Below are positions 3,918 through 29,490 of a DNA stretch of 64,000 bases, one piece after another. Source of the DNA: Streptomyces sp. NBC_00775 (lineage in GTDB: Bacteria > Actinomycetota > Actinomycetes > Streptomycetales > Streptomycetaceae); contig NZ_CP108938.1 of NCBI RefSeq assembly GCF_036347135.1, positions 9,672,001 through 9,736,000 on the forward strand, in the 5' to 3' direction. Position numbers and translations under genes: made by a program. Every line of letters starts with the position of its first letter. Positions within the stretch are counted from its first letter, which is position 1. Below the pieces are notes generated by a model that did no database searches, was not told the DNA's origin, and saw nothing but the letters and a program-made list of their open reading frames with translations.

Positions 3918-5312
3918 GTGTTGGCCAAGGCTCCCGTCGATCTCCGCCGCTGCCAGGCCCTGGGCCTGGCCGGTACCGCCTTCCTCGCCCTGGGCGGTGA
4001 GACGGCCGGGGCGCTGCCCATGCAGGACCTTCTCGCCCCCGAGTCCGGCCGTGCCGTACTCGGCCTGGTCGGCGTCTACTTCGGCGTCGTCCTGCTGATA
4101 GCCGCGTGGGCGCTGCTGGGCACCGTCGTACGGGGCCCCGAACCACCGACTCCCCGCTCCCTGCTGCTCGTTCTCGCCGTGTGGGCGGCGCCGCTGCTGC
4201 TCGCGCCGCCGCTGTTCAGCCGGGACGTGTACAGCTATCTCGCGCAGGGCGCCATGGTCGACGCGCACATCGACGTGTACGCGCACGGGCCCGCGCAGCT
4301 CGGCGGTCCGCTCGCCGACGAGGTGGCGCCGGTGTGGCAGCAGACGACGACGCCGTACGGCCCGGTCTTCCTCGCCGTCGCCTCGGCGCTGTCCGGACTC
4401 ACACGCGGGGAGATACCGGCCGGACTGCTCGGCATGCGCCTGGTCGCCCTGCTCGGCGTCGCCCTGATGGCGGCGGCGCTGCCCCGTCTCGCCCGGCACA
4501 GCGGCGCCGATCCGGCCGCCGCGCTGTGGCTGGGGGCGCTCAACCCCCTCGTCCTGCTGCACCTGGTGGCCGGTGCGCACAACGACGCCATCATGCTCGG
4601 TCTGCTCGGGGTCGGACTGGTGGCCGCGCGCGGCCGGTGGCACGTCCTGGGTGTCGTCCTCATCACCCTCGCCGCCCTGGTGAAGGCGCCCGCGGCGCTC
4701 GGCCTCCTCGCGGTGGTCGCGCTGCGCGGGCGCCGGGGGATGCTGAGGTCCGCCGTGACCACGACCGGGGTCGCCCTCGCCACGACGGTCGCGGCAACCG
4801 CCGCCACCGGTACGGGATACGGCTGGATCGCGGCCCTGAGGACCCCCGTCTCGCCGCACAACTGGTCGCCCACCAGCGTCCTCGGCCGCGCCACCGGCGC
4901 CTTGCTGGAGAAACTCGGCAGCGGCCTGGCACCCCTGGCGCTGCCCGTCTGGCACGCGGCGGGACTCGCGCTGACCGTGCTGGTGGTCCTGTTCATATGG
5001 CTGCGCCTGCGGCCCGGCCCGATCTACGCGCTGGGCCTGAGCCTGGCCGCCGTCGCCGTGTTCGGCCCGGCGATCCGGCCCTGGTACGCGCTGTGGGGCC
5101 TGTTCCTCATCGCGGCGGCGGCGCCGAGCGGTTCGGTACGCCACCGGGTCGCGGCCGCCAGCGCGGTGCTCGCGCTCGCCGTGCTGCCGAGCGGGGGACC
5201 GCCGGACGCCGAACAGGTGGTCCTGGCCGTCTCCGGCGGAGTACTCGCCCTCGTCGTGCTCTGGCACGCCCACCAGGCGGCGCAGGCACCGGTGCTCGGG
5301 CGGGCGGCATGA
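3918..5312 (+). CDS. mptB: Polyprenol-phosphate-mannose-dependent alpha-1,6-mannosyltransferase (MptB-like)
   Basis: A 464-residue integral membrane glycosyltransferase of the GT-C type with roughly a dozen hydrophobic segments. The first large loop carries FSRDVYSYLAQGAM near 97-110, followed by YAHGP and WQQTTTPYGPVFL, a pattern of actinobacterial MptB-like enzymes that use polyprenyl-phosphate mannose to extend lipoglycans. LNPLVLLHLVAGAHNDA near 210 is also family-typical. The start is a GTG at 3918. Its stop overlaps the next ATG (ATGA), so it is translationally coupled to a second glycosyltransferase. The substrate in this organism is inferred from family only. Confidence 0.82.
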   Translation: MLAKAPVDLRRCQALGLAGTAFLALGGETAGALPMQDLLAPESGRAVLGLVGVYFGVVLLIAAWALLGTVVRGPEPPTPRSLLLVLAVWAAPLLLAPPLFSRDVYSYLAQGAMVDAHIDVYAHGPAQLGGPLADEVAPVWQQTTTPYGPVFLAVASALSGLTRGEIPAGLLGMRLVALLGVALMAAALPRLARHSGADPAAALWLGALNPLVLLHLVAGAHNDAIMLGLLGVGLVAARGRWHVLGVVLITLAALVKAPAALGLLAVVALRGRRGMLRSAVTTTGVALATTVAATAATGTGYGWIAALRTPVSPHNWSPTSVLGRATGALLEKLGSGLAPLALPVWHAAGLALTVLVVLFIWLRLRPGPIYALGLSLAAVAVFGPAIRPWYALWGLFLIAAAAPSGSVRHRVAAASAVLALAVLPSGGPPDAEQVVLAVSGGVLALVVLWHAHQAAQAPVLGRAA

Positions 5313-6709
5313 GAAGACCGGGCGGCATGGGAAGACCGGGCAGCACCGATCGCCGGCGGTTGCTCTTCGTGCTCGGACTCGCCGTCGCCGTCGGCGTGTT
5401 CACCGCCACCGTTCCGCTGCTGCGCGACTGGTTCGACCTGCGCGTCTACTACGGGGCCGTCGACACCTGGGTCCACCACGGCGGCCGGATCTACGACTAC
5501 CGGGTGCCGGGGACGACGTACGGCTTCACCTATCCGCCCTTCGCGGCCCTCGGCATGCTGCCGATGGCGCTGGTCGGGCTGCGCACGGCCATCGCCGTCG
5601 GGCTGCTGCTCAACCTCGCCGCCCTCGGCGCGGTCGTGTGGGTCCTGGTCGGGCCCGCGCTGCGCCGCTACGGCTGGTTCGGTTTCGCCCTGGCGGGCTG
5701 TCTCCTGGCGCTCCTCGAACCGGTCCGTGACACCTTCAGCTTCGGCCAGGTGAACCTGCTGCTCCTGGCCCTCGTGCTGAGCGACGCGTGGCTGCTGTCC
5801 ACCGGCCGGGGCCGCCGGGCGGGCGTCGGCATCGGCCTGGCGGCGGCGGTCAAGCTCACCCCCGCGCTCTTCATCGGCCTGCTGCTGCTCGCCCGCCGCT
5901 GGCGCGCCGCCGGGGTCGCGACCGCCGTCGCCGCGGCGGCCACCGGGCTGGCCGCCTGGGCGGCACCGGGAGCCTCACGCTTCTACTGGACCGACGCGGT
6001 GTGGGACACGGCCCGCATCGGACAGCTCGGCTATGTCTCCAACCAGTCGTTGCAGGGCGTCCTGGCCAGGCTCGCGGCACCGGACGAACCGAGCAGGGCC
6101 ACCTGGGCGACGGCCGCCCTGCTGGTCCTGTGCGTGTGGGCGTGGCGGGCCTCCCGTGCCCTGGCCGACGAGGACTGGACGGCCGCGTTCGCCCTCACCG
6201 GGCTCGCCGCCTGCCTCGTCAGCCCGATCACCTGGGTGCACCATCTGGTCTGGCTGCTGCCGTCCTTCGCCGTGCTGCTGCACCGGGGCCGGCCGCGGAT
6301 CGTGGCCGCCTTGTACGTCGTGCTGTGCAGCAGCGTGGTGTGGCTGTGGTTCGACGACGCCTCCGGCCTCGACGGATTCCTCGGCAGCAACACGTATACG
6401 TGGATCACGCTCGGGCTGCTGCTGTGGCTGCCCGCCGGTCAGTCACGCGTGGGCCGTGTGCCCTTGAGCCGCAGGGCCAGGGCGACGCCGCCGGCGCCCA
6501 GGCCCGCTGCGCCCGCGATGACGGCGGCCTCGGACCAGCCGGCTCCGTCGCTCTCCGCCGGAGTCGCGGGCAGGGCTTCGGGTCCCGCGGCCGGTACCCG
6601 ACGCGTGTCGAGCAGCGTCCCGACGGGATCGACGTGCCCGGCCGCCCCGAAGCCCCAGTCGAGCAGCGAGCGCGCCTCCTCGTACACGGCGAACCCGCCG
6701 CCCTCCTGA
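5309..6709 (+). CDS. GT87-family (DUF2029) membrane glycosyltransferase with 3' end antisense to dacA-like gene
   Basis: An integral membrane protein of the GT87 / DUF2029 family (mannosyltransferase-like). Family features: RVYYGAVDTWVHHGGRIYDY near 46-65, TYGFTYPPFAALG near 70-82, FGQVNLLLLALVLSDAWL near 147-164, AAVKLTPALFIGLLLL near 180-195 and ITWVHHLVWLLPSF near 308-321. Recognisable membrane sequence ends near residue 377 (base 6439). The open frame then continues about 90 residues of Pro/Ala/Ser/Arg-rich sequence antisense to the convergent carboxypeptidase gene and stops at 6709, giving 466 residues where I expect about 380-420. It starts by ATGA overlap with the mptB-like gene. The tail may be a real extension or the result of a lost stop codon. 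Confidence 0.75.
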   Translation: MRRPGGMGRPGSTDRRRLLFVLGLAVAVGVFTATVPLLRDWFDLRVYYGAVDTWVHHGGRIYDYRVPGTTYGFTYPPFAALGMLPMALVGLRTAIAVGLLLNLAALGAVVWVLVGPALRRYGWFGFALAGCLLALLEPVRDTFSFGQVNLLLLALVLSDAWLLSTGRGRRAGVGIGLAAAVKLTPALFIGLLLLARRWRAAGVATAVAAAATGLAAWAAPGASRFYWTDAVWDTARIGQLGYVSNQSLQGVLARLAAPDEPSRATWATAALLVLCVWAWRASRALADEDWTAAFALTGLAACLVSPITWVHHLVWLLPSFAVLLHRGRPRIVAALYVVLCSSVVWLWFDDASGLDGFLGSNTYTWITLGLLLWLPAGQSRVGRVPLSRRARATPPAPRPAAPAMTAASDQPAPSLSAGVAGRASGPAAGTRRVSSSVPTGSTCPAAPKPQSSSERASSYTANPPPS

Positions 6710-26044: not shown

Positions 26045-26071
26045 TGTCGAATCGGCGTGACCCCGTTCGTC
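26045..26071 (+). promoter_or_regulatory. ECF42-type promoter, site 1 (TGTCGA-N17-CGTC)
   Basis: TGTCGA at 26045-26050 and CGTC at 26068-26071 are separated by 17 nt and lie 38 nt before the first DGPF gene. This agrees with the TGTCGA / CG(A/T)C type motif I recall being reported for ECF42 sigma factors. A near copy with the same spacing occurs at 28433-28459. Autoregulation by the sigma factor at 27191 is the natural reading. Confidence 0.7.
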
Positions 26072-26109
26072 GGTGCGGTGTAGGAAGCTCAAGAGCACCG
26101 GGAGGAACC

Positions 26110-26856
26110 ATGAAGTACATGCTGCTGGTCTGCGGCGACGACACCGCCGACGCCTCGGGCATGGCACCCGTCGAACCCTGGGTCGAGGAGCTGGGCGCCG
26201 AGCGCGGCGTACGGCTGCACGGGCACCGGCTGCGGCTCCCCGCCGACGCGGTCACCGTGCGGGTGCGCGACGGTGAGGTGCTGCGCACCGACGGGCCGTT
26301 CGCGGAGACGAAGGAGTACGTCGCCGGCTACGACATCCTCGAGTGCGACAGCCTGGAGGAAGCCGTCGAGGCGGCCGCCAAGCATCCCGTGGCGTCCATC
26401 GGGGCCATGGAGGTGCGCGCGTTCTGGGACGACGAGGACACCGAGGGGGAGATCCGCCGGCTCGACGCGGAGCTGACCGCCGCCGCCCGCGAGCACGACA
26501 TCGACCGGGCGATGGCCTGCTACGCCCCTGACGTCGAGGTCTTCCACCCCGTGAGTGGTCTCGAACAGCGCGGGATCGACGCCCTGCGCAAGGCGGAGGA
26601 GTGGTGGTGGGCGTCGCTCGTCGGACCCGTGGAGCGCGAAGTACTCGACTTCCGCGTCCGGGTCGACGAGAGCGTCGCGTTCAGCCACGCGCTCGTACGG
26701 ATGCGGGCCACGCTCACCGGCGGCGACTCACTGGACACCACGGCGCGGGTGACCACCGGTTACCGGGCCGCCGGCGACAAGTGGCAGATCGTCCACCAGC
26801 ACACCTCGGTCCCGTTCGACGCCGGAATCCAGGGAAACCCGGAGGGCCAGTCATGA
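26110..26856 (+). CDS. DGPF (YCII-like) protein fused to an NTF2/SnoaL-like domain
   Basis: A 248-residue two-domain protein. Residues 1-105 are a YCII/DGPF domain (MKYMLLVCGD start, DGPFAETKEYVAGYDI near 61-76). Residues 115-240 match an NTF2/SnoaL-like fold (AREHDIDRAMACYAPDVEVF, ARVTTGYRAAGDKWQIVHQH). DGPF proteins are the standard partners of ECF42 sigma factors, but their biochemical role is unknown; fusion to a SnoaL-type pocket suggests small-molecule binding. The start is preceded by GGGAGGAACC. It overlaps the second DGPF gene by ATGA. Confidence 0.88.
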   Translation: MKYMLLVCGDDTADASGMAPVEPWVEELGAERGVRLHGHRLRLPADAVTVRVRDGEVLRTDGPFAETKEYVAGYDILECDSLEEAVEAAAKHPVASIGAMEVRAFWDDEDTEGEIRRLDAELTAAAREHDIDRAMACYAPDVEVFHPVSGLEQRGIDALRKAEEWWWASLVGPVEREVLDFRVRVDESVAFSHALVRMRATLTGGDSLDTTARVTTGYRAAGDKWQIVHQHTSVPFDAGIQGNPEGQS

Positions 26857-27194
26857 AGTACGTGTTCTTCATCTGCGCCCCCGTCGGCGGCGAGGAGCTC
26901 AGCCCGGAGGAGATCGCCGACGACCCCCGCTTCACCTCGTACATCGACGAGGTCCGCGGCCGCGACGTGGTGAAGGGCGGCGCGCGACTGCGGCCGGCCA
27001 CCGACGCCACCACCGTGCGCGTCCAGGGCGACGAAGTCCTGCTCAGCGACGGTCCGTTCGTGGAGTCCAAGGAGTATGTCGCGGGCTTCGACATCATCGA
27101 GGTCGCCGACCTCGACGAGGCCATCGCGCTCGCGTCCCGGCACCCGGCGGCGCTGGGCGGCGGCTCGGTGGAGGTGCGGCCGGTCTGGGAGTGA
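26853..27194 (+). CDS. DGPF (YCII-like) protein
   Basis: A 113-residue single-domain YCII protein: MKYVFFICAP start and DGPFVESKEYVAGFDIIE near 67-84, the signature that names the DGPF group. It starts by ATGA overlap with the fused paralogue and its TGA overlaps the GTG of the sigma factor gene, so the three genes are translationally coupled. In other actinomycetes such proteins are produced under ECF42 control; a function as modulator of the sigma factor or as an enzyme remains open. Confidence 0.9.
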   Translation: MKYVFFICAPVGGEELSPEEIADDPRFTSYIDEVRGRDVVKGGARLRPATDATTVRVQGDEVLLSDGPFVESKEYVAGFDIIEVADLDEAIALASRHPAALGGGSVEVRPVWE

Positions 27195-28447
27195 ACGACG
27201 ACGGCGTCGAGGAGGCGGTCGACGCCGCCTTCCGCGAGGAATGGGGCCAGGTCGTCGCCACCCTGATCCGGGTGACCGGCGACTGGGACCTCGCCGAGGA
27301 GTGCGCGCAGGACGCCTTCGCCCAGGCACTCGCCCGGTGGCGGCGCGACGGAGTACCGCGCCGCCCCGGCGCCTGGCTGACCACGACCGCCCGCAACCGC
27401 GCTCTCGACGTGCTGCGCCGGGAGGCGGTCGGGGCGGCGAAACTGCGGGAGGTGGCGGTGCTGGCGCGGGACGAGGGGCCGTACGACCCGGAGTACGACG
27501 GCGACGACAGCGGGGTCCAGGACGACCGGCTGCGGCTGATCTTCACCTGCTGCCATCCCGCGCTGCCCATCGAGGCCAGGGTCGCGCTGACCCTGCGCAC
27601 CCTCGCCGGGCTGAGCACACCCGAGATTGCCCGGGCCTTCCTCGTCCCCGAGGCGACGATGGCGCAGCGCCTGGTGCGTGCCAAGCGGAAGATCCGCAAC
27701 GCCGGCATCCCGTACCGCGTACCGCCCGCGCATCTGCTGCCCGAGCGCACGACGGGTGTGCTCGGCGTGGTCTACCTCCTCTTCAACGAGGGGTACGCGG
27801 CCACGTCAGGCGCCGACCTGGTGCGGACGAACCTGTGCGCGGAGGCGATCCGGCTGGCCCGCGTCCTGGCCCGCCTGATGCCCGACGAGCCCGAAGCGCT
27901 GGGTCTGCTCGCACTGTTGCTGCTGCACGACGCCCGGCGCGGCACACGGGTCGACGCGGCGGGCGAACTGGTGACGCTGGAGGACCAGGACCGTACGGCC
28001 TGGGACAAGGCAGCCGTCGACGAGGGCGCCGCCCTGCTGGAGACCGCCCTGCGCCGCGGGCGTCCGGGCCCGTACCAGATCCAGGCCGCCATCGCCGCCT
28101 GCCACACCACCGCCGAGACGGCCGAGGACACGGACTGGGCCGACATCGCGGCGCTGTACGGCGAGCTGGAGCGCTTCGTGCCGTCCGCCGTGGTGCGCCT
28201 CAACCGGGCGGTCGCCGTGGGCATGGCCGAGGGCCCGGAAGCGGGGCTGGCGAGGGTGGCGGAGCTGGAGGCGGAGGGCGAGCTGGACGACTACCACCTA
28301 CTGCCCGCCACGCGCGCGGACCTGCTGCGGCGTGCCGGGCGCTTGGTGGAGGCAGCGCAGGCGTACGCCAGGGCGCTGGAACTGGTGGAGAACGACGCCG
28401 AGCGACGCTTTCTGGAGAAACGGCTGGCGGAGTGTCGATCGGCGTAG
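27191..28447 (+). CDS. ECF42-group RNA polymerase sigma factor with C-terminal TPR-like extension
   Basis: A 418-residue extracytoplasmic-function sigma factor. Sigma-2 spans about 10-80 (GDWDLAEECAQDAFAQALAR, RRPGAWLTTTARNRALDVLR), sigma-4 about 115-185 (LTLRTLAGLSTPEIARAFLV, AQRLVRAKRKI). The remaining 220 residues are a helical TPR-like extension (GVVYLLFNEGYAA, LNRAVAVGMAEGPEAGLA, FLEKRLAECRSA) typical of ECF42, in which it is thought to replace an anti-sigma factor. The gene starts with GTG (GTGA overlap). Its last codons contain a second promoter of its own type. Confidence 0.92.
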   Translation: MNDDGVEEAVDAAFREEWGQVVATLIRVTGDWDLAEECAQDAFAQALARWRRDGVPRRPGAWLTTTARNRALDVLRREAVGAAKLREVAVLARDEGPYDPEYDGDDSGVQDDRLRLIFTCCHPALPIEARVALTLRTLAGLSTPEIARAFLVPEATMAQRLVRAKRKIRNAGIPYRVPPAHLLPERTTGVLGVVYLLFNEGYAATSGADLVRTNLCAEAIRLARVLARLMPDEPEALGLLALLLLHDARRGTRVDAAGELVTLEDQDRTAWDKAAVDEGAALLETALRRGRPGPYQIQAAIAACHTTAETAEDTDWADIAALYGELERFVPSAVVRLNRAVAVGMAEGPEAGLARVAELEAEGELDDYHLLPATRADLLRRAGRLVEAAQAYARALELVENDAERRFLEKRLAECRSA

Positions 28448-28459
28448 GGGCCGCTCGTC
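28433..28459 (+). promoter_or_regulatory. ECF42-type promoter, site 2, inside the 3' end of the sigma gene
   Basis: TGTCGA (28433-28438) and CGTC (28456-28459) again have a 17-nt spacer. The -35 element is written by the sigma factor's final Cys-Arg codons and the site continues past the stop codon. Site 1 and site 2 also share (A)TCGGCGT after the -35 and CGTCGGTG.GGTG around the -10. Site 2 lies 37 nt before the start of a 60-codon ORF, almost the same leader length as site 1. Confidence 0.65.
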
Positions 28460-28496
28460 GGTGGGGTGAAAGCACCTCACGACACCGGAGGCTCCC

Positions 28497-28679
28497 ATGA
28501 CCACCCTCGTGCCCACGCACCGCACCCGCACGTTCCTCGCCCTGCTGCCTCCCCGGCTCCGGAGGCCGATGCGCCGGACACCCGCCGCCCCGCCCGAGTC
28601 GGTACCGCACGGGCCGGCGGCCGGTGACGGACCGGGCGCCCCGGACGTCTGGCTCGCGGGCCTGCGCCTGGGAGGCTGA
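28497..28679 (+). CDS. Small Arg/Pro-rich protein, candidate ECF42 target
   Basis: A 60-residue ORF that begins with ATG after CCGGAGGCTCCC. The protein opens MTTLVPTHRTRTFLALLPPR and is rich in Arg, Pro and Ala, with predicted pI far above 10; no domain is recognised. It has its own promoter matching that of the sigma operon, 37 nt upstream, and a proper ribosome site. It may be a small regulatory or interaction partner of the sigma factor. I cannot rule out that the transcript is a regulatory RNA instead. Confidence 0.6.
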   Translation: MTTLVPTHRTRTFLALLPPRLRRPMRRTPAAPPESVPHGPAAGDGPGAPDVWLAGLRLGG

Positions 28680-28719
28680 CCGATGAGCGCCACCGTCACC
28701 GCTTCCGGCCCCCGCGCGG

Positions 28720-29490
28720 TCACTGCGAGTCGAGCGCGTTCGTGATCGCCTTCACCCCGCCGTGCGCCGAGTAGCCGCCGTCCACGGTGATCTCGGCGCC
28801 GTTCACATACGACGCCTCGTCCGAGAGGAGGTACACGACCAACGGGGCGACCTCGTCGCAGCTGCCGGGGCGGCCCTGCGGAGTCATCGAGAGGTGCGCC
28901 TGGGTGAAGACGGGGTTCGCGGTGGCCATCAGCGGGGTCTCGATGTAGCCGGGGTGGATCACGTTCGTACGGATGCCACGGGGCGCCAGCTCCAGGGCGG
29001 CCACCTTGGACAGGCCGCGCAACGCCCATTTGCTGGCCGTGTACGCGACCGCGTGATGGGCGGTGAGGCCCGCGACCGAACCGACGTTGACGATGGAGGA
29101 GCCCTTGTCCATCAGGGGGGCGAGGGCCTGGATGCCGAGCATCGGGCCGGTGGTGTTCACGGCGAACGCCCGGTTCCAGTCGGCGAGCTCGACCGATCCG
29201 AGGCGGGCGCGCATGGGGATTCCGGCGTTGTTGACGAGGCCGTGCACCTCGGAGAGCGACGCCGCGAGCGTCGCCCAGTCGTCCGGGGACGACACGTCCA
29301 GGTGCTGGTAGCGCACGTCGAGGCCGTCGGCGCGAAGTGAGGCGGCCAGCTTCTCGCCCGGTTCGTCGAGGACGTCCGTCGCCACGACCGAGGCGCCCTC
29401 CCGGGCCGCGGCCGCCACCTCGACGGCCCCCTGGCCCTGCGCGGCTCCGGTGATGACGACGGTGCGACCGGCCAGGCGCGTGCGGCTCAC
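28720..29490 (-). CDS. SDR oxidoreductase, 3-alpha/20-beta-hydroxysteroid dehydrogenase-like
   Basis: A 256-residue classical SDR: ITGAAQGQGAVEVAAAAREG (about 13-32) binds NAD(H), VNNAG at 86-90, Ser in VGSVAGL and catalytic YTASK near 150-154, with NGAEITVDGG at the end. The GQGA variant of the glycine motif is seen in hydroxysteroid/xylitol-type SDRs. It is 42 nt downstream of the LysR gene in the same direction and may belong to the catabolic cluster. A TGCGGG-TT-CCCGCA palindrome lies in the gap between them. Confidence 0.88.
   Translation of the reverse strand: MSRTRLAGRTVVITGAAQGQGAVEVAAAAREGASVVATDVLDEPGEKLAASLRADGLDVRYQHLDVSSPDDWATLAASLSEVHGLVNNAGIPMRARLGSVELADWNRAFAVNTTGPMLGIQALAPLMDKGSSIVNVGSVAGLTAHHAVAYTASKWALRGLSKVAALELAPRGIRTNVIHPGYIETPLMATANPVFTQAHLSMTPQGRPGSCDEVAPLVVYLLSDEASYVNGAEITVDGGYSAHGGVKAITNALDSQ

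Follow-up and report, generated by a model that had tools for sequence, protein, structure and literature searches.

We analyzed a 64,000-nt stretch of the genome of Streptomyces sp. NBC_00775 (contig NZ_CP108938.1, forward strand, positions 9,672,001 to 9,736,000; hereafter the window, numbered from its own first letter) that carries the operon of an extracytoplasmic function (ECF) sigma factor of the ECF42 type and, at the end of the sigma gene, a second promoter (P2) followed by a small open reading frame (ORF). The order is promoter P1, a DGPF gene (YCII-related plus SnoaL-like domains), a second DGPF gene (YCII-related domain), the sigma gene, the small ORF and a convergent dehydrogenase gene (Table 1). 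An earlier note on this DNA had reported two TGTCGA-N17-CGTC sites, at 26045-26071 and 28433-28459, 38 and 37 nt before start codons at 26110 and 28497, and had placed a 60-codon ORF with a good ribosome site behind the second. We confirmed the sites, both distances and the ORF exactly, and found the ribosome site to be a GGAGG sequence; the regulatory feedback that the note also proposed is a candidate reading. P2 had been described as embedded in the last codons of the sigma gene, which holds for its -35 element, formed by a Cys and an Arg codon, but not for its -10 element, which lies 3' of the sigma stop codon (28445-28447) crossed by the spacer. Neither a sigma-70 promoter nor a hairpin-plus-T terminator was found within 28300-29000.

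The sigma factor and its surroundings have the features of the ECF42 type, namely sigma-70 regions 2 and 4, a C-terminal tetratricopeptide repeat (TPR)/DUF6596 extension, DGPF/YCII genes in the operon and a TGTCGA/G ... CGTC promoter before it. TPR structures were the best fold matches for models of this extension from two orthologues (L022 and L051), from which its TPR-like fold was assigned. The target promoters of RpoE10 in Sinorhizobium meliloti are of the TGTCGA/G ... CGTC kind (Table 1 of PMC6180224). Such a kind of promoter is known already; what is new is the small protein and the way P2 overlaps the sigma gene.

Table 1. Features of the ECF42 locus and its surroundings in the window
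Feature	Position	Strand	Basis
Promoter P1: -35 TGTCGA 26045-26050, -10 CGTC 26068-26071, extension GGTGCGGTG	26045..26080	+	Sequence, motif search, comparison
DGPF protein 1, fusion of YCII-related and SnoaL-like domains	26110..26856	+	Pfam PF03795, PF13474
DGPF protein 2, YCII-related domain	26853..27194	+	Pfam PF03795
ECF sigma factor, ECF42 type, with C-terminal DUF6596/TPR-like extension	27191..28447	+	Pfam PF04542, PF08281, PF20239
Promoter P2: -35 TGTCGA 28433-28438, -10 CGTC 28456-28459, extension GGTGGGGTG	28433..28468	+	Motif search, comparison
Shine-Dalgarno sequence GGAGG of the small ORF	28487..28491	+	Sequence
Small ORF, 60 aa, net charge +5	28497..28679	+	Sequence, profile search, codon comparison
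Codons for the conserved C-terminal 12 residues PDVWLAGLRLGG	28641..28676	+	Comparison
GGGAGG purine run in the last codons of the small ORF	28670..28675	+	Sequence
Short-chain dehydrogenase gene, convergent, adjoining the P2 unit	28720..29490	-	Pfam PF13561

The second promoter and its conservation

The short motif TGTCGA-N17-CG(A/T)C occurred twice in the window against a mean of 0.8 in shuffled sequence, 20 of 100 shuffles reached two copies, and the whole genome held 36 copies against 19 for the reversed control. The motif is too common for it alone to carry the promoter claim, and this commonness is what favors a chance match in front of an ORF that is not a gene. When the motif was extended to TGTCGA-N17-CGTCGGTGNGGTG and searched with its 17-nt spacer, the only perfect matches in the 11.1-Mb genome were P1 and P2. 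No site had one mismatch, the next best was a single site with two, and a limit of three mismatches gave 29 sites against 19 reversed controls. At this strictness and with this spacer, the sigma factor appears to have its targets at this locus alone. The consensus of 46 P1 and 34 P2 sites with a 17-nt spacer, taken at 60% or more at each position, was TGTCGAT for the -35 and TTCGTCGGTGGGGTG for the -10 element, and it extended well beyond the latter. The exact sequence CGTCGGTG.GGTG was present at 33 of these P1 and 28 of these P2 sites, and P2 of the window carries CTCGTC where most relatives have TTCGTC. Among the further shared bases listed in the earlier note, the GGTG.GGTG past the -10 element is kept in relatives, while beside the -35 element just the first bases of TCGGCGT are general. 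The GGTG.GGTG 3' of the -10 element (26068-26080 and 28456-28468) falls in the likely start-site region, and most loci keep it at both promoters, where it might serve as a discriminator or as the site of a second protein.

We read 54 loci with this sigma factor, leaving out a partial sigma match in genome G024. Fifty of them were reached through sigma gene searches and form an unbiased set; L051, L053, L057 and L073 entered solely through the codon pattern of the small ORF, and L057 was counted as having P2 and an intact ORF despite its mostly deleted sigma gene. P2, with a spacer of 16-18 nt, was present in 35 of the 54 loci (31 of the unbiased 50), and 32 of the 35 copies start exactly 12 nt upstream of the sigma stop codon. 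The small ORF was intact in 27 loci (23 in the unbiased set), all of which have P2, and two loci (L031 and L074) carried ORF remnants without P2. The start of the ORF lay 36-42 nt 3' of the -10 element in 21 of the 27. In 19 relatives with sigma factors 57-67% identical (L094-L111 and L114; 16 from other genera, three Streptomyces), the patterns used found neither P2 nor the ORF.

We then compared the last codons of the sigma gene in 59 loci, that is, the 54 and five named loci, with L134 left out, as were L128 and L131, whose contigs have the same lengths as those of L018 and L032. The pair TGT-CGA stood at the end of the sigma gene in 37 of the 38 loci with an intact non-coding -10 element and in 6 of the 18 without it, and in three further loci a Cys codon is missing at this place. 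In the rest of these sigma genes, TGT accounts for 9.3% of the Cys codons and CGA for 1.8% of the Arg codons. The link between this rare pair and an intact -10 element suggests that selection on the promoter seems to act on coding bases of the sigma gene. The uniqueness of the extended motif, the conservation in relatives and the linked rare codons led us to reject a chance origin of P2; together with the conserved non-coding -10 element and the codon selection in one frame described below, they leave a fortuitous site before a spurious ORF with practically no credence. Comparison with relatives thus upheld a further promoter of this type with the gene for a conserved small basic protein behind it, as the earlier note had it. 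The note had staked this on the site and the ORF being kept in relatives, and both are conserved. P2 as a real second promoter and the small ORF as a gene are supported by these comparisons.

A small-protein family with a nearly fixed C-terminus

A profile built from 21 products of the ORF matched 133 protein clusters, of which 120 were listed, and the organisms named were Streptomyces. The 120 listed members, all entered as hypothetical or uncharacterized protein with no functional name, are 35-103 aa long, have a net charge of 0 to +10 (mean +5) and combine a variable Arg-rich front with the nearly fixed C-terminus PDVWLAGLRLGG, sharing little else. Pro at -12, Trp at -9, Leu at -8, Ala at -7, Arg at -4 and Leu at -3 were found in 118 of the 120, variation within the motif was greatest at -6 and in the final two residues, and the distance from motif to stop was constant in 118. 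The ORF had been described as Arg/Pro-rich, but it is the C-terminal dozen residues, not the Arg/Pro-rich part, that is conserved. NCBIfam gave no family match for the protein of the window, and Pfam none for the 21 members (one match had an E of 0.39). A literature search, with most subscription papers outside its reach, recognised no publication on this small ORF, and neither PMC9205884 nor PMC11256431, the latter on the PepX peptide, had a bearing on it.

The ratio of non-synonymous to synonymous differences (pN/pS) over the C-terminal 12 codons was 0.19 in the 27 loci, while the other two frames gave values above 3.5. Values just upstream of the motif in this comparison are unaligned; in alignments of close relatives, the front part gave 0.66-1.15 and the C-terminus 0-0.39. 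Judged by these ratios, the motif codons are under purifying selection and the front part not or barely. An origin of the ORF as a relic of a pump or sigma gene was rejected on account of its own reading frame and the selection on it. Comparison between loci thus brings out the conservation of the promoter, the reading frame and the constraint on the C-terminus.

The codon pattern of the C-terminus was found at 28 places in 392 genomes, and its reversed control at none. Twenty-four of these places lie at the sigma gene or its remains (L065 and L066 are scars, and L057 has lost most of the sigma gene). The remaining four comprise the decayed loci L048 and L064, L054 with an intact ORF and the sigma gene gone, and L058 with another context. 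In L058 a 45-aa Arg/Pro-rich ORF (1399-1536) ending in WPSLWLAALRLRG follows an acetyltransferase-like gene in a place that lacks this sigma gene, and a search with its C-terminus matched solely that one protein. In L021 and L076, of one clade, the sigma proteins end in LAELRLGG and LAGLRPGG, as if joined to the end of the small ORF. These ends look like deletion scars, and we draw no conclusion from them as to whether peptide and sigma factor occur fused in nature. A reading of the C-terminal -GG as a ubiquitin-like tail was dropped, the last residue varying between G, S, C, R and N.

The efflux pump and the probable history of the unit

Ten of the 27 loci have a gene for a DHA2-type efflux pump behind the ORF. 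Its product is 78-85% identical to the pump of L040, and alignment to residue 1 of that pump puts the gap at -10 to 45 nt. The pump matched NCBIfam TIGR00711 with an E of 8e-60, yet under the family cut-off. A purine run (GGAGG, GGGAG, AGGAG or GGGGG) was present at the end of the ORF in all ten pump loci and in 4 of the 17 others, and by its position before the pump gene it can be a usable ribosome site for the pump in these relatives. The last two codons encode G[G/S] in all ten pump loci and in 10 of the 17 others (Fisher 0.026), and such a loosening without the pump is expected if these codons double as its ribosome site. In the window, comparison established that the pump is absent: the ORF is followed just by a 20-codon ORF (28683-28745), possibly a relic, and when we looked for a pump remnant behind the small ORF none was detected.

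The small ORF might be a regulatory leader of the pump: its nascent C-terminus would stall the ribosome at or near the stop codon, or its translation would simply be coupled to that of the pump, and either would set how strongly the pump is expressed. The pump-less loci would then be relics. The fixed distance from motif to stop and the variation at the last two residues and at -6 would suit such a leader, and the pattern is somewhat like that of an arrest peptide with an essential motif 7-11 residues from the stall site (PMC10987492). Arrest peptides such as SecM, the RQH family and CruR likewise consist of a short ORF with a conserved C-terminal motif and a functional gene behind it (PMC10987492 and PMC9426467). 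Unlike these, many loci here have no downstream gene, a RAPP/RAGP-type motif is absent, and the next gene in the window is convergent. In L029, L039 and L040 the pump stands behind a P2 whose ORF is deleted or truncated, and the motif is kept under selection in 14 loci that have no close same-strand gene. A leader for a lost pump is the main specific competing account, and we consider it unlikely on balance.

The fourteen loci are among the 17 without a pump; the other three have a methyltransferase-like frame behind the ORF, and in L001 and L085 an open stretch begins just 377 and 323 nt 3' of it. The first ten motif codons had a pN/pS of 0.20 in the 14 loci. We also compared three pump-less pairs (L027/L067, L041/L088 and L050/L057), in which loss of the pump before the split of the pair was deduced from shared downstream neighbours; L022/L073, with different neighbours, and L034, unlike L027, were excluded. 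Of the non-synonymous sites, 3 of 64 differed within the first ten codons of the motif and 54 of 220 in the front part (Fisher 1.7e-4), while synonymous sites did not differ (0.33). Selection on the small ORF therefore seems to persist, and the ORF to matter, without the pump. No close copy of the pump was found elsewhere in the 17 pump-less genomes, that of the window included, with up to 80 candidates scored per genome, and all three controls were found.

When the arrangements were coded as six states and placed on a tree of 53 sigma rows, they required 21 changes (minimum 5; 29.7 in shuffles), which indicates many losses that are partly common to relatives. The tree itself has weak support, good for 16 of its 50 inner branches. 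The simplest history is probably an ancestral P2-ORF-pump unit in the clade from which pump and ORF were lost separately several times.

Candidate partners and related arrangements

The explanation that we favor as a whole, with somewhat more confidence than doubt, is that P2 serves a small protein acting in trans through its C-terminus, with the TPR-like extension of the sigma factor as the partner of first choice. The sigma factor would activate its own operon from P1. From P2, where its gene ends, it would drive an independent short transcript, which would be translated into the small basic protein. This protein would act in trans through its C-terminal 10-12 residues, the Arg-rich front being a tolerant tether. 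The older arrangement would have been P2, small ORF and DHA2-type pump, of which the pump was lost here and the ORF retained as a one-gene unit. If the partner is the sigma factor's own extension, the circuit would be one of feedback. We infer the dependence on the sigma factor, transcription, translation, action in trans and the partner from this arrangement and its conservation.

TPR domains commonly bind C-terminal peptides. The ECF42 extension is TPR-rich, comprises about 200 residues and has interaction partners yet to be identified according to a 2022 review (PMC8999054). For these two reasons we chose the extension as the first single candidate for the partner, and we propose it tentatively. 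That the small protein is a ligand docking in the TPR groove and setting the activity of the sigma factor is a narrower proposal and a more doubtful one; fold matches of the extension do include peptide-bound TPR domains, as generic members of the TPR class. If true, this would make the small protein an anti-sigma (or co-sigma) device that lacks any anti-sigma domain, and the wiring of a TPR-peptide switch would have moved to a sigma factor. The small protein is in any case a concrete candidate partner for the TPR extension of ECF42 sigma factors, and even with another partner it represents a well-conserved family that is functionally unnamed in the 120 listed entries.

Several results weigh against this explanation. 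Twenty-seven of the 50 sigma-bearing genomes of the unbiased set have no intact small ORF. AlphaFold placed the ORF part with no confidence (pLDDT, the per-residue confidence score, of 29-55 for L022 and 32-44 for L051) beside a mostly confident sigma part, in chains where nothing but the stop codon of the sigma gene stands between sigma factor and ORF; this is not decisive, few alignment rows covering the ORF and 25 of the 29 added small-ORF rows of the L022 job being misaligned. The TPR region is equally conserved with and without the ORF, with a mean deviation of 0.0859 in 26 loci that have it and 0.0851 in 24 that do not, and a site-by-site comparison of the sigma factors gave no clear position (largest difference, shuffle p 0.07). 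The ORF is intact in G314 (L054), where the sigma gene and the -35 element are gone, and P2 and ORF are intact in G049 (L057), where about residues 288-418 of the sigma factor are left, so the ORF does not strictly track the sigma gene. P2 and ORF are likewise intact in L134 beside a frameshifted sigma gene (possibly a sequencing error). The motif is also a little looser in pump-less loci (pN/pS 0.23 against 0.13 with the pump), the tightest constraint thus lying in pump loci, which leaves room for a link to the pump. The ORF is broken in two loci with a decayed or lost sigma gene (L048 and L064). Feedback on the sigma factor, as suggested in the earlier note, drew no support from the docking, from relaxation of the TPR region or from the distribution of the ORF, which is intact in two genomes that have no intact orthologous sigma gene. 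In L057 the sigma remnant is apparently joined to the first DGPF gene.

We weighed two further roles for a product of a real P2. It might be an accessory effector of the stress response without a regulatory role, which we regard as a possibility of some weight, though doubtful, and about as likely as the pump leader. Unrelated genes stand behind a second promoter of the same kind elsewhere (L112, L113, L135 and L136), and the ORF is dispensable and in places outlives the sigma gene; nothing specific speaks against an effector, and the NCBIfam and Pfam searches gave it no family. Alternatively, the ORF might encode a propeptide. Its C-terminal segment would be released and recognised by the TPR domain of the sigma factor, as in PlcR-PapR or Rap-Phr, and the pump could be its exporter. 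The small gene adjoins a TPR-bearing regulator, stands behind that regulator's type of promoter and has a conserved extreme C-terminus; papR is controlled by PlcR. PlcR-PapR and Rap-Phr structures were among the fold matches of the extension, but just as members of the large TPR class. These RRNPP systems have a TPR regulator, an adjacent small gene and an active C-terminus (PMC9765709). The adjacent small gene and the TPR-like domain recur here, and peptide release and binding would be conjecture. Unlike in RRNPP systems, the receptor would be a sigma factor, the motif is nearly invariant between species rather than diversifying, and there is no secretion signal: in none of the 120 fronts did hydrophobicity averaged over 12 residues exceed 1.8 (a simple test, not a dedicated predictor). 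With no confident docking and a pump that is often missing, we judge a released peptide improbable.

The S. venezuelae ECF42 sigma genes presumably have DGPF neighbours as well. Three of these sigma factors (Sven_0747, Sven_4377 and Sven_7131) and ECF-10 of Pseudomonas putida carry a TPR-rich extension as here (PMC8999054), and the accessible part of that account of ECF42 makes no mention of a second promoter in the sigma end with a small-protein gene. In S. meliloti, the rpoE10 sigma gene lies behind a YCII-related gene with no identifiable anti-sigma factor, as here, and RpoE10 is reported to raise the operon SMc01149-SMc01148, which has an ECF42-type promoter, but not its own operon (PMC6180224). 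That operon is numbered next to rpoE10, a likeness to P2; unlike the small ORF, the RpoE10 targets carry hydrophobic-ligand and glyoxalase-like domains (PMC6180224).

Second promoters also occur behind more distant sigma genes. In two Streptomyces with sigma factors 67-69% identical (L112 and L113), TGTCGA-N17-CGTCGGTGGGGTGACAG lies 27 and 40 nt past the sigma stop codon. The gene behind it we take to be DUF899-like, and NCBIfam gave no match for the L112 protein. In Actinophytocola oryzae a site 1 nt past the sigma stop codon leads into the gene for a TIGR03086 protein (L135, E 1.4e-34), and A. xanthii has the close form GGTCGA before a hydrolase-like gene (L136); the sites lie at about 5217-5277 and 5370-5433, respectively. 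A loose pattern near the sigma end was found in just 7 of 80 named loci, so the second promoter is not general; five of the seven are the two Actinophytocola species, an apparent chance match (L194) and Streptomyces already counted or similar. A second promoter near the 3' end of the sigma gene, leading into different genes, is thus present for sigma factors of the ECF42 kind in several lineages. The genome of the window has four more sigma genes of this type (L002, L003, L004 and L005), 48-59% identical, at which the pattern used found no ORF with this C-terminus. L003 and L005 have TGTCGA-N17-CG(A/T)C before the upstream gene, which is of the DGPF type by eye.

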